A DNA stretch of 64,000 nt from Calditrichales bacterium MX18-03. Lineage in GTDB: Bacteria > Bacillota > Clostridia > Lutisporales > Lutisporaceae. Of this stretch, positions 8,021 to 55,695 are shown one piece after another; positions within the stretch are counted from its first letter, which is position 1; each line of letters begins with the position of its first letter. A model generated the notes under the pieces. The model was given only the letters and a program-made list of their open reading frames with translations. It was not told the DNA's origin and searched no databases. Location of the stretch: positions 434,001 through 498,000 of the forward strand of contig JAJGRE010000003.1 in assembly GCA_021083345.1 (NCBI GenBank), read 5' to 3'. Position numbers and translations under genes: made by a program.

Positions 8021-9295
8021 TTAAGCGTTCATAAGAGCCCGTGTCATGTTGACCCATTGGCTCAAGCGCGACCGGTCACCGTTCAGCGTATAGATGTCCC
8101 GGTAGCAGAACTCCAGATTGCAGTCTTTAGCTGCAGCCAAAGTATCCTTCACATCTTTTTCCAACAGGCTCCAATCGGGATAGGTTCCGCTGATATAGGT
8201 CGGCAGAGGCTTCCTGGAGTACACGTAGTCCTTGCCCAGTATCTCACCGACTTTGTACAGGTTATTCCAACCGGATACCGAGACTGCCCTGAGATTGGGA
8301 ATAGCCTTCTTGACCTGCTCGAACCGGTCGTCCACTCTTTCGCAGCAGCCGTAATACACCAGGCCGAACAACTTGCTGACTTCCGCTATGTAAGGCAGGA
8401 AAAACTCATTGAACATAGCGGGTGAGATAGCGGTTGTCTCTTGCGAGTCCGTCCATCCCCAACAATCCTGAAGACTGACGCCATCATCAGCTGCTTGCGG
8501 GTGTTGCAGGTCTGAGACAAAACCATAGCTGCCCGGACAAGGATTCCAGGTATCGGAATTCCGGTACAGCAGTCCCTCGCTTTCCATCCATTTGAAATGC
8601 CGGATCCTGTCTTCCATCAGGAAACGCATCAGCTGGTGAACCACCTCCGGCTCGTCGTAAGTCCATAACATCAGGTTATCATTTCCTGCCAGCTTGAAGA
8701 AGTCCATGGTCAGACCTCCGTAAAGGTTGCCCAGCCACGGATGATAGCCTTCATCCAGATCAAAAGGATCATAGCCCCCAATTTTTATAGGCAGGATATC
8801 GCCAAAGATATCCTCCAGAAGCGCTTTGTGCGCCATGGTTTTTTCCCGGTTGACGTTTCTGGTTTTATATCTCAGCTTCTTTAGGTCCTCCGAGGTCTTT
8901 ACAGCGAAGTTGAAGGAATAGCCAAGGGAGCTGCCGTCTGATGCCTGAGCATGATGCGCAACTATAGGTATCCCATAGTCAGACAACTCCAGCACCCAAG
9001 GCACCCTGAAATAGTTGTCAACGATGATGTCATCTCCAATTTCTTCAGCATGCCGGACTATCTCACGCAATGACTTTTCTATGTTCCGAAGATACGGATC
9101 CTGATTGATAAGCTCATCCTGCCCAATGTAATCGGACAGCATGCACGTTTCTACCAGGATCATGGGCTTCTCCGCCTCCAAATCCTTAATAGCCCGCCAC
9201 TGCCTTTTCCTGACCGCCATGATAGGCAACGCGGCAATTTCCCGCCATGTCTGCGCCAGCGTCCTAAGTGCCTGCCTCTCTTTTACGCTTATCAT
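8021..9295 (-). CDS. Uroporphyrinogen decarboxylase (URO-D) superfamily protein, methyltransferase-like branch
   Basis: 424 aa. Fold and motifs suggest the URO-D/MtaA/CmuA superfamily: GDDIIVDNYFRVPW near residue 105, LMLWTYDEPEVV, an internal DTWNPCPGSYGFVSD segment, and YYGCCERVDDR where Zn-binding methyltransferases of this group place HxC. The C-terminus contains EFCYRDIYTLNGD. Clostridial members of this branch are usually annotated as methyltransferases or unknown. There is no corrinoid protein gene beside it. The start at 9295 has AGGAGGGG 6 nt upstream. Substrate unknown; sharing an operon with an AraC regulator points to an inducible catabolic role. Confidence 0.75.
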   Translation of the reverse strand: MISVKERQALRTLAQTWREIAALPIMAVRKRQWRAIKDLEAEKPMILVETCMLSDYIGQDELINQDPYLRNIEKSLREIVRHAEEIGDDIIVDNYFRVPWVLELSDYGIPIVAHHAQASDGSSLGYSFNFAVKTSEDLKKLRYKTRNVNREKTMAHKALLEDIFGDILPIKIGGYDPFDLDEGYHPWLGNLYGGLTMDFFKLAGNDNLMLWTYDEPEVVHQLMRFLMEDRIRHFKWMESEGLLYRNSDTWNPCPGSYGFVSDLQHPQAADDGVSLQDCWGWTDSQETTAISPAMFNEFFLPYIAEVSKLFGLVYYGCCERVDDRFEQVKKAIPNLRAVSVSGWNNLYKVGEILGKDYVYSRKPLPTYISGTYPDWSLLEKDVKDTLAAAKDCNLEFCYRDIYTLNGDRSRLSQWVNMTRALMNA

Positions 9296-11445: not shown

Positions 11446-11456
11446 CCCCTATTTTT

Positions 11457-11485
11457 TATTTATCATAATTCACACCATGTGTCAA
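11457..11485 (-). promoter_or_regulatory. Promoter of htpG
   Basis: On the minus strand, TTGACA (11480-11485), a 17-bp spacer and TAAATA (11457-11462), directly followed by the CIRCE element. Confidence 0.75.
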
Positions 11486-11510
11486 GATGTTTTTAATAAG
11501 TCGGAAGGAA

Positions 11511-11542
11511 GACAAAAGCACCTTATCATAAATAAGGTGCTT
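11511..11542 (-). terminator. Terminator of the small ferredoxin gene
   Basis: An 11-bp stem, AAGCACCTTAT (11516-11526) with ATAAGGTGCTT (11532-11542), followed on the minus strand by TTTTGTC. It separates the ferredoxin gene from the htpG promoter. Confidence 0.8.
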
Positions 11543-11575
11543 ATTCAACAAAAACGACATTGCATATGTCCTGGA

Positions 11576-11764
11576 TCAATCTTTCAGTTGTAATGCCCCC
11601 ATTGGGCAAAACTTGACGCATTTGCCGCATTTTATACATGCATCGTTGTCCACTGTCGGCGCTTTATAGCCCGTCTGTTTCAGTGCATTTACAGGACATA
11701 CGCGGATGGACGGGCACGGATGGTTCTGCGGACATCGGCTGTTGATGACAACTAGTTCTTTCAT
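11576..11764 (-). CDS. Small 4Fe-4S ferredoxin-like protein
   Basis: 62 aa. The C-terminal half has a classical cluster motif, CIKCGKCVKFCP, with a Pro after the last Cys. The N-terminal half has Cys at CPQNHPCPSIRVCP, a non-canonical spacing in which the first Cys is well separated, so a second cluster is likely but its ligands are less certain. It probably acts as an electron carrier or a redox-sensing protein. It is monocistronic, between its own consensus promoter and terminator. Confidence 0.88.
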   Translation of the reverse strand: MKELVVINSRCPQNHPCPSIRVCPVNALKQTGYKAPTVDNDACIKCGKCVKFCPMGALQLKD

Positions 11765-26671: not shown

Positions 26672-27262
26672 TCATTTCTGTACGATAAACTTTAATTTGC
26701 CGAACATTTGGTTATCTACAGCAGAGTTTTCAGCCAGCCTAACGCAGGTAGCTGAGGCATCAATAAACAACGAGCCAAGCTGTTCTATTGCCCTAACATT
26801 CTCATGCTCCGGTAAGGCTGACACCTGTGCCACAAGATAACGGGCCAATCCGATTAGCTCGGGCTGCCGTTTTTTTGCATCTGGATTTGATAGATTTGAA
26901 CATAATTCTTTGAAAATATCATACTTGGAGCTGTAGAAGCTTAGGCATTCACCCAAGAGTTCAGCTGTTGCGCGGCTGTGCAAATCCATGAAAAACTTTT
27001 TAGTGATTGCATCTGATGTCCTTTTCCTAATGTCCTCTGATACGCGAAGCCTGAATTTGCATATTCTTATGGCTATGATAAGCACAACTGCTGCGAGATC
27101 CATGGAATACCTGATCATCCCTTCTTCCGAGAGCTTCAGTTCTTTGTCCGCTATACTGGGCTCTAGCCCTCGCATATAGTATTCCATTACAAGCGAGCGC
27201 CACGTTTCGACATACTCGTCGAAGCTTAGCTGTAGTTTGGGGCTAAACTCTTTGAATGCCAT
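26672..27262 (-). CDS. Uncharacterised protein in PTS/hexulose operon
   Basis: 196 aa, not recognised. It appears soluble and helix-rich, with no signal peptide. Segments such as YSMDLAAVVLIIAIRICKF and GLARYLVAQVSALPEHENV are moderately hydrophobic helices. The start has AGGGAGG upstream, and the gene lies 12 bp after the hexuloisomerase gene, so it belongs to the operon. A regulatory or accessory role in the sugar pathway is possible but unsupported. Confidence 0.7.
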   Translation of the reverse strand: MAFKEFSPKLQLSFDEYVETWRSLVMEYYMRGLEPSIADKELKLSEEGMIRYSMDLAAVVLIIAIRICKFRLRVSEDIRKRTSDAITKKFFMDLHSRATAELLGECLSFYSSKYDIFKELCSNLSNPDAKKRQPELIGLARYLVAQVSALPEHENVRAIEQLGSLFIDASATCVRLAENSAVDNQMFGKLKFIVQK

Positions 27263-27274
27263 GCATAATCCTCC

Positions 27275-27829
27275 CTATTCGAGATTTGCGTGTCGGTGCT
27301 TTATATCTTCCTCGCTCCATCCTTTTTTCTTCATTATCTCCAGCGCAATCATGTCGCCAAGCAAATATAACTGTTGCTCAAACAGTGTGGACATCGGCTG
27401 AACAGACATGAATTCACCGGTTCGGTTTAGCTTGGTGCGGCCCGCCAACAGTAAACAGCAGTCTGCAATGCCCGCAATCGTGCTGTCTGGAGAGCATCCA
27501 ACATATATCACATAAGCACCTTGATGCTTGGCGATTTGAGTTATCGCAACTGGAAAAACGCTCTCCCCCGACGAGGATGCAGCTATCAGTAGATCTCCCT
27601 CGCTAATTGGCATCTCCGTCTCGCTGCCTACGTAGTTGATATCCAATTCCAAATGTACCAAGCGTTTTACCCATGCCTTCATTGAAACCAACACCCTTCC
27701 GACACCAACCACGAGTATACGGCGCGGCTGCATCAATTGTCCGATAAAAAACTCGAACTCACACACATCGATGCGTGCGAGCGCTAGTGAAAGCTCGTTC
27801 AGAACCGTTTGTCTACTGTCATTCAACAT
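27275..27829 (-). CDS. hxlB: SIS-domain isomerase, 6-phospho-3-hexuloisomerase-like
   Basis: 184 aa SIS protein. GVGRVLVSMKAWVKRLVHL, the YVGSETEMPISEGDLLIAAS stretch with SSSGES phosphate loop, and the C-terminal KHRHANLE match 6-phospho-3-hexuloisomerase (PHI), which interconverts 3-hexulose-6-P and fructose-6-P. The usual GAGRSG reads GVGRVL. There is no 3-hexulose-6-P synthase partner in the window, so a formaldehyde-fixing role is unlikely here; a sugar-catabolic role fits better. It overlaps the preceding dehydrogenase gene by 7 bp. Confidence 0.85.
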   Translation of the reverse strand: MLNDSRQTVLNELSLALARIDVCEFEFFIGQLMQPRRILVVGVGRVLVSMKAWVKRLVHLELDINYVGSETEMPISEGDLLIAASSSGESVFPVAITQIAKHQGAYVIYVGCSPDSTIAGIADCCLLLAGRTKLNRTGEFMSVQPMSTLFEQQLYLLGDMIALEIMKKKGWSEEDIKHRHANLE

Positions 27830-41086: not shown

Positions 41087-41122
41087 AAATGTATGCCTAT
41101 GACAACCCATAGGCATGCATTT
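41087..41122 (-). terminator. Possible terminator/expression-platform hairpin of the purine riboswitch
   Basis: Arms 41087-41100 and 41109-41122 pair with only one or two mismatches (AAATGCATGCCTAT with ATAGGCATACATTT on the minus strand), directly 3' of riboswitch P1. The following T tract is short (ATTTAAAC). Ligand binding would favour this hairpin and stop transcription, if it acts like guanine OFF switches. A second inverted repeat (41016-41023 with 41056-41063) lies further downstream. Confidence 0.6.
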
Positions 41123-41123
41123 G

Positions 41124-41191
41124 CTCATAGTCAGACAATTTACGGTCGTCTGGTAGAAACTTGCAGACCATATCTCTGCGGATATATGAAC
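41124..41191 (-). ncRNA. Purine riboswitch aptamer, guanine class
   Basis: On the minus strand: P1 TTCATATAT, then P2 CGCAGA/TCTGC with GATATGG loop, J2/3 AAGTTTCTACC, P3 CAGAC/GTCTG with loop GACCGTAAATT, then ACTATG closing P1. This matches the purine aptamer core, including the loop-loop partners and TTTCTACC. The specificity base after TCTGA is C (TGACTATG), which in this class selects guanine/hypoxanthine rather than adenine (U). It precedes the xanthine dehydrogenase-family operon. Confidence 0.95.
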
Positions 41192-41216
41192 ATTATCTGT
41201 TTTTATATGCAAATAC

Positions 41217-54968: not shown

Positions 54969-55280
54969 TTATTTTTCACCACTGCAGAAGCATAGCGTTT
55001 CCGGATCACATACATAAACCTCATGCATAAAAAGAAATCTACGCACATCAATTTTTAAGAGATTTTTATTGTACTTTATTTCCTTATGAATAAAGATCAC
55101 AATACCATCGATTTCATGTTGATAGTATGCATCTTTATTGCTTGGTTGTCCTATCCTCACCGAGGGTAGAGGCGGAGATGCTCAGCAAGTTCTACTCATT
55201 ACATTTCCCAGAGTAATGAACTTATTGGCTTTCTTTTCAAGATATGACTTAAGCGCGTCCGTTACTATAATGTTTATCAT
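54969..55280 (-). CDS. Putative small selenoprotein: in-frame TGA after Cys (C-U motif)
   Basis: The minus-strand frame runs from the ATG at 55280 (AGGAG 8 nt upstream) to the TAA at 54969-54971 and is interrupted once, by TGA at 55182-55184. Read as selenocysteine it gives 103 aa with Cys32-Sec33 in MSRTC-U-ASPPLPSVRIG. Both sides are protein-like: VTDALKSYLEKKANKFITL before, and YYQHEIDGIVIFIHKE, IDVRRFLFMHEVYV and a Cys-rich end (CDPETLCFCSGEK) after. It resembles small clostridial proteins with a CC or C-Sec motif, as I recall them. A hairpin directly follows the TGA. The alternative is a recent nonsense mutation or a Cys-only paralog; the intact frame argues against decay. Confidence 0.75.
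55155..55172 (-). promoter_or_regulatory. Candidate bacterial SECIS hairpin
   Basis: Minus-strand RNA: nine bases after the UGA, CCUC-U-ACC pairs with GGU-GAGG, giving seven base pairs, a bulged U on the 5' side three pairs below the loop and a CUC loop. E. coli fdhF SECIS has the same geometry (stem about 11 nt after UGA, bulged U three pairs below the loop), although its loop is GGUC. Confidence 0.55.
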
Positions 55281-55393
55281 AACACTCACTCCTCTCCCTA
55301 AACATCTATTTGCACACTTGTTGAAGCTTTTCCTTAAGCCTCCTCTTTATTCTTTTGAATAAGCGGCTGTCCGGGGGCTAGTATTCTTTTGTG
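55281..55393. other. Gap upstream of the selenoprotein candidate
   Basis: About 110 bp. It contains the ribosome site of the minus-strand gene and A/T-rich sequence; no consensus promoter was found. Confidence 0.4.
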
Positions 55394-55407
55394 CTTATCC
55401 GCGTTTT

Positions 55408-55563
55408 TCACCTTCGAAAAAATATCTTCAGGATCTCTTCATGTGCAAATTTCCCGTGAGCATTGTATGTTCCGTAGTGCATGGGGACCAGTAAAGCATC
55501 CTGCATGGCATTAGCAAGGATAATGGCTCCGGGATGTCCCAGATGAAGAGTACAAGGGTTTTA
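55408..55563 (-). pseudogene. C-terminal remnant of a metallo-beta-lactamase-fold protein
   Basis: A minus-strand frame without a start reads NPCTLHLGHPGAIILANAMQ followed by DALLVPMHYGTYNA and ends EEILKIFFRR with TGA near 55410. The VPMHYGTYN block is typical of the C-terminus of MBL-fold hydrolases. Upstream in the same frame there is a TAA at about 55561, and no ATG. It is a decayed fragment of about 50 codons. Confidence 0.5.
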
Positions 55564-55695
55564 ATTAAGTATTCTCTTTTTTTGTCCAATTTCCTTTAAT
55601 AATCTTGTACTTTCCAGGCTCAAGCCTTATTCATCAAGGTATGTTAATATAATATTTATGTATACATTTTCAAAAAAATAAAATATAATGAATTA

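Follow-up and report, generated by a model that had tools for sequence, protein, structure and literature searches.

Selenoproteins of the CC/Se motif family are described by the NCBIfam model NF041239 ('CC/Se motif family (seleno)protein', Moor_selen_rel), and a 2026 review classes the family in its Table 1 as hypothetical, with a prediction in Moorella thermoacetica and the motif CxxU (PMC13188914). For the HesB-like model TIGR01911 the same review gives the motif UxGP (PMC13188914); TIGR01911 and NF038090 cover likewise small proteins, with selenocysteine (Sec) in a HesB-related protein. In E. coli IscA, one of the A-type Fe-S carriers (IscA/SufA/ErpA, PF01521), Cys35 lies in the first third of the protein and Cys99 and Cys101 form a CxC near the C-terminus. 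The arsenic metallochaperone ArsD has adjacent soft ligands.

The window, i.e. the whole 64-kb stretch of DNA analysed here, carries a gene (Table 1) whose product scores 50.9 bits against NF041239 (cut-off 40), and by sequence criteria its membership in the CC/Se motif family is close to certain. A preceding sequence-only reading had likened it to small clostridial CC/C-Sec proteins, which agrees with this match; it had also called the gene unannotated, which holds for naive gene callers only, because the family is covered by an NCBI model. Small size and a Cys/Sec motif are common to the window protein and the described family, but the motif is CU here and CxxU in the review, and the DPETxCxC tail lies outside the model, which has 91 positions and covers residues 4–90, with the tail beginning at residue 92. 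NF038090 reaches only 17.1 bits against a cut-off of 85, and neither TIGR01911 (E≤10) nor any Pfam family (E limit 10) was listed for the window protein with the HMMER filters on. The family itself is already catalogued; what this analysis adds is a small subtype with a conserved DPETxCxC tail and a predicted A-type Fe-S carrier fold.

The gene and its in-frame TGA

The gene starts with the ATG at 55280, has TGC TGA as codons 32–33 (55187–55182), continues for 70 codons and ends with TAA. The 103-codon minus-strand frame described in the sequence-only reading, with its AGGAG and a single TGA after TGC, was confirmed at 55280–54969, as was the Cys-rich C-terminus, which reads CDPETLCFCSGEK and includes Cys91, Cys97 and Cys99. 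As that reading had expected of standard callers, a naive caller reports only the 63-codon 3´ part, a 63-aa ORF from the GTG at 55160; by eye, no purine-rich ribosome site precedes this GTG. Open stretches of at least 90 codons with a single TGA occur 18 times in the window, and three of them, including this gene, are clear of large ORFs. Since such frames are not rare, homology must decide on the window gene. One of the other two (11456–11764, minus strand) is ferredoxin-like up to a TGA stop, with all matches below curated cut-offs, and was rejected as a false positive; the other (27256–27606) has no NCBIfam match at E≤0.01.

Table 1. Features of the gene in the window (positions are those of the window)
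Feature	Position	Strand	Basis
Selenoprotein gene (predicted), 103 codons, CC/Se motif family, CU type with C-terminal CxC tail	54969..55280	minus	frame, family match, homology
Ribosome site AGGAG, spacer of 8 nt to ATG	55289..55293	minus	sequence reading
Cys32 codon TGC, directly before TGA	55185..55187	minus	sequence reading and relatives
TGA, predicted Sec33	55182..55184	minus	24 TGA and 5 Cys codons in 29 chosen relatives
Candidate bacterial SECIS hairpin, apical loop GGU 20 nt past UGA	55150..55170	minus	folding
Tail motif D92-P-E-T-L-C97-F-C99	54984..55007	minus	D, P, T and both Cys invariant in 7/7 tailed members

Against a profile of 29 relatives, from which the window gene was left out, residues 1–32 scored 19.0 bits (best of 1000 shuffles 6.8) and residues 34–103 scored 69.5 bits (best of 1000 shuffles 9.2), and both sides of the TGA, called protein-like in the sequence-only reading, are thus homologous to the family far beyond the shuffled level; the five other frames reached at most 3.5 bits with the same profile. 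A chance open frame is excluded because both flanks are homologous, not because the frame is open. Homologues aligning across position 33 were found, with TGA (24) or a Cys codon (5) in that column of the 29 relatives, a set selected for a CU/CC-type motif, whose proportion of TGA genes should not be read as a family-wide rate. The set comprises 24 of the 30 loci from the P0028 search together with L024, L039, L040, L052 and L053. The remaining six loci were not used: L110 and L128, whose genes were already included, and L116, L123, L127 and L129. Among the latter, L116 is a CU gene with TGA too, and L123 and L129 have Cys-Cys. Within the chosen set, 23 of the 24 TGA relatives have a Cys codon immediately 5´ of the TGA, and a tailed relative (L107, 47% identical) has TGT TGT where the window gene has TGC TGA. 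Among the homologues read, none has the look of a simple pseudogene with a stop or frameshift elsewhere; the further stop within the match of L116 reads as the end of a short member, like L053, L119, L125 and L131. The close pair L103/L104 shows dN 0.069 and dS 0.71 before the TGA (a short part with 17.5 synonymous sites) and dN 0.038 and dS 0.30 after it, and judged by these rates is under purifying selection on both flanks.

The source genome (G000; completeness given as 100, contamination 3.35) contains the genes needed for Sec insertion that the sequence-only reading had named for a search: a tRNA-Sec (70 bits, anticodon tca), selB (372 bits), the adjoining selA (634 bits) and selD (390 bits), which has one in-frame TGA of its own and adjoins selA and selB (L098, G000:C7:1184060-1184980). 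A reassigned genetic code was rejected, because TGA terminates 5 of the 44 window ORFs of at least 200 aa. By these sequence criteria we are nearly certain that the window gene is a genuine selenoprotein gene. Its UGA would be decoded by the SelB/tRNA-Sec pathway, yielding a 103-residue protein with a Cys32-Sec33 pair.

The review describes bacterial SECIS elements as hairpins with a loop of 3–9 nt, a G in the first two loop positions and a distance of 16–37 nt from the UGA, and sets an energy limit of -7.5 kcal/mol (PMC13188914). Of the 25 TGA genes (24 relatives and the window gene), 23 have the loop of their best hairpin 20 or 21 nt past the UGA, compared with two of the five Cys genes, and the mean z against synonymous recodings is -1.09 for the TGA genes and +0.06 for the Cys genes (25 vs 5 genes). 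In an earlier mixed set the means were -1.35 for 25 TGA genes and +0.38 for 6 Cys genes (two offsets each). Figures for the Sec-Sec entry L078 in the later set are disregarded. Conserved Pro-Ser/Thr-Val codons add to the hairpin geometry. For the window gene itself z is -0.96 or -0.49, with 16 and 29 of 100 recodings folding equally well, the constrained energy of -6.6 kcal/mol falls short of the published limit, and the free fold favours another register with a loop lacking the G. Among the other tailed TGA genes z ranges between -0.80 and +0.86, and L107, the tailed gene with Cys, retains the hairpin (-10.6 kcal/mol, z -1.12) with a stability equal to that of many TGA genes. A SECIS element is thus likely as a signal of the group; for the window gene alone it is plausible and not significant, and the same applies to its subtype.

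The tailed subtype and the wider family

In the P0028 search, 33 of the 118 genomes around G279 had a match, and the tail [YF]DP[ED]T[ILV]CLC[SG]G was found in six genomes (G279, G394–G398) from two genera, five with Cys-TGA and one with TGT TGT (L107 in G397). Counting the window gene, the loci read include seven tailed members, which come from three genera. Residues invariant across all seven include Cys32, Sec/Cys33, Ala34, Pro36, Pro39, Pro46, Asp92, Pro93, Thr95, Cys97, Cys99 and Gly101, and the alignment shows that the predicted window protein belongs to a subtype with a conserved DPETxCxCxG tail. Since L107 is 47% and L108 44% identical to the window protein, the nearest relative found is the Cys homologue. 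The DPETxCxC tail was absent from the 18 further loci read (L144 excluded).

At E≤0.001 the P0001 search matched 14 of the 61 near genomes, and at E≤1e-4 it matched 24 of the 391 from the class; the tailed-subtype profile matched 32 of 398 genomes of the phylum (E≤1e-5). The source genome is counted in each case. NF041239 matches every one of the 26 members of alignment A3 at E≤1. The first relatives read also include the motif types UC, UGC and CC, and across the family the partner Cys differs (UC, CU, CxxU, or U without a near Cys). In UC members MAFFT opens a gap of one residue behind the motif; when residues are counted by eye from the TGA to the conserved Pro, the Sec of all three types (UC, CU and Sec-Sec) falls into the same column. 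Scanning the genome contig collection with the window protein as a single sequence returned no relative. The alignment scan gave 10 loci, including one in Lutispora thermophila DSM 19022, nine of them in genomes already covered; all have TGA, with a Cys codon next in eight of them and Arg next in L059 and L060, and none is of the CU type. The phages and plasmids searched had no match at E≤0.01. In one genome, two family genes stand in tandem, one with and one without TGA (G536:C17:28933-29489). Part of these family features may already be described in two papers by Haft on new selenoprotein families.

Predicted fold, paralogues and neighbouring genes

The models make an IscA-like fold of the window protein quite probable. 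A first model, built from a 26-sequence alignment, had a pLDDT of 83.8, and in VIA-align it matched SufA (2d2a_A) with Z 8.9 (rmsd 3.3, 99 aligned) and three IscA entries with Z 8.3–8.8 (best 8.8, rmsd 3.0, 94 aligned). The ten rows above Z 5 were SufA, the three IscA, two entries named 'putative Fe-S biosynthesis protein', and YneR, DsrR, AQ_1857 and HI1723, whose structures we take to be IscA/HesB-like. The second model (32 sequences, pLDDT 88.9) was more confident and gave lower Z scores (SufA 2d2a_A 7.5, rmsd 3.6, 94 aligned; IscA 7.8 at best, rmsd 3.7, 91 aligned), possibly just a common arrangement according to the tool's warning. Foldseek matched SufA with E 3.2e-3 for the first model and 3.3e-4 for the second (SufA top). 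No thioredoxin-fold match of note was among the structural matches. The tail was modelled poorly, with a mean pLDDT of 62 and 72 for residues 91–100 and of 36 and 39 for residues 101–103.

The likeness to A-type carriers lies in this predicted fold; the window protein has no PF01521 match, and the profiles are not significantly alike. Comparison with E. coli IscA/ErpA/SufA gave probabilities of 0.3% and 2.2% (P 0.22 and 0.022), hhalign pairs Cys32 with IscA Cys35 in a weak alignment, and the five matches of profile A3 to PDB sequences at E≤10 (best E 1.1) include no A-type carrier. NF038090 (IscA/HesB) matches 8 of the 26 family members weakly (E≤1). In the source genome PF01521 finds nothing above its cut-off and two sub-threshold matches, the better one (16.1 bits) at the UC paralogue. 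As to the ligands, Cys32/Sec33 and Cys97-x-Cys99 might, by analogy, correspond to IscA Cys35, 99 and 101, a hypothesis suggested by one Cys in the first third and a CxC near the C-terminus in both proteins; the carriers have CGCG where the window protein has CxCxG, and Sec is added.

Four family members with TGA are present in the source genome. The UC paralogue (C10:211203), like the window gene, is above the NF041239 cut-off. The U-G-C paralogue (C7:1089360; L068 8361-8666; G000:C7:1089360-1089665, minus) is below it and ends a gene run with Nfu-like and HpaB-fold genes (both below cut-off) and a CoA-transferase-like gene; by eye, the HpaB-fold protein resembles 4-hydroxybutyryl-CoA dehydratase. 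The fourth member, the Sec-Sec paralogue (G000:C10:20259-20558, minus; L066 8260-8559), has two adjacent TGA codons, and is 15% identical to the window protein; at E≤0.01 NCBIfam gives a single match for it, NF041239, with 32.7 bits against a cut-off of 40. By family matches, with the order read by eye, its operon comprises an ArsR-type regulator, ACR3, phosphodiesterase-like gene, Sec-Sec gene, ArsD and ArsA-like gene. The P0005 search matched 10 of the 391 class genomes. Eight of these, the source genome included, have side-by-side TGA codons, at nine loci in total (L079–L085 and L089 among them). Relatives of ArsR, ACR3, ArsA or ArsD lie within ~5.5 kb at seven of the nine, and no ars genes were found within this distance at L094 (G172) and L097 (G150). 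ArsD occurs in the same operons as the Sec-Sec paralogue and both have adjacent soft ligands, but it is a neighbour only, with no sequence relation seen. The Sec-Sec type near ars genes connects the family to metalloids and is the strongest hint of soft metal(loid) handling by it. The TGATGA gene of L097 (7051-7263, G150:C35) lies, by eye, near aldehyde ferredoxin oxidoreductase-like and MoaD/ThiS-like genes.

Neighbouring genes were identified by eye unless a family match is given. The window gene stands alone between enoyl-CoA hydratase-like and SulP/DauA-like transporter genes (matches below curated cut-offs), 711 nt from the latter, and has no telling neighbours. Upstream of it, 55340–55600 on the minus strand resembles, by eye, the remnant of a decayed metallo-hydrolase gene. 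The tailed relatives of one genus lie near YczE-like, S-layer, cysteine desulfurase-like and ThiI-like genes, and those of the other genus have different neighbours; no context common to the window gene and the tailed relatives was seen by eye.

Possible roles of the protein

The sequence-only reading had suggested thiol-selenol redox or selenium/metal handling; predicted fold and paralogue neighbourhoods lean towards a role in metal(loid) or Fe-S handling. We slightly favour, as the explanation of the whole, a Sec-decoded CC/Se family protein with an IscA-like fold that acts as a soft-metal or Fe-S carrier; for the role taken by itself, a carrier or soft-metal function has roughly even chances and is the most likely one. 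The Cys-Sec pair would meet the tail cysteines Cys97 and Cys99 like the three Cys of A-type carriers, so as to hold a soft metal centre, be it an Fe-S cluster, iron or a metalloid, between Cys-Sec and CxC and then hand it on. Sec in place of Cys might provide a softer and faster-exchanging coordination. Metal-binding Sec is raised for other families in the review (PMC13188914). A catalogued selenoprotein family of no known function would thus gain a testable fold and role, with Sec as a ligand of the carried metal and not as a redox catalyst, and the subtypes UC, CU, CC, Sec-Sec and tailed offer a natural series for what selenium adds. More speculatively, and in our view improbable, the tailed subtype might be a Sec A-type carrier with a full ligand set (Cys-Sec and CxC) that replaces the canonical carrier in Sec-using Clostridia, and the wider family might then be an IscA-fold radiation with Sec or Cys, directed at soft metals and including the ars-linked Sec-Sec form; the source genome lacks a PF01521 protein above cut-off.

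The main rival is a redox selenoprotein, in which a Cys32-Sec33 selenenylsulfide would be reduced by thioredoxin or a flavoprotein and the fold would be a scaffold only. The vicinal Cys-Sec pair fits such a function, as does the view in the review that most uncharacterised selenoproteins are likely redox proteins (PMC13188914). By eye, the tailed relative L137 lies ~0.9 kb after TrxB-like and thioredoxin-like genes, with one gene between, and the untailed relative L072 follows a gene for a FAD protein. However, the top structural matches of the models are Fe-S carriers and not thioredoxin folds, the varying partner Cys is odd for a fixed dithiol mechanism, and one paralogue type sits with arsenic genes, so that we regard a redox function as rather unlikely. 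These arsenic genes might instead indicate an ArsD-like metalloid chaperone, which would bind arsenite or a comparable toxic metal(loid) through its Cys-Sec pair and deliver it to a pump: the Sec-Sec paralogue of the source genome stands in an ACR3-containing operon, flanked by the phosphodiesterase-like gene and ArsD, and ars genes accompany most Sec-Sec loci. This link runs through a distant paralogue only, and no ars genes were seen by eye around the window gene or its tailed relatives, which leaves such a chaperone unlikely. Decay of a Cys gene, with the TGA as an ordinary stop, could be suspected from the remnant-like upstream region and the existence of the Cys form L107. A TGA at the same position in 24 of the 29 chosen relatives, from several families and genera, open and homologous flanks on both sides, selection on both flanks in L103/L104 and the Sec machinery of the genome make a pseudogene extremely improbable.

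Two observations concern other genes. Beside the CU gene of L075, a late-starting glutaredoxin-like ORF (8087-8299) may, by eye, have its first part before a TGA and could be a further selenoprotein. In the window, a purine riboswitch is located at 41108–41209 on the minus strand (84.9 bits).
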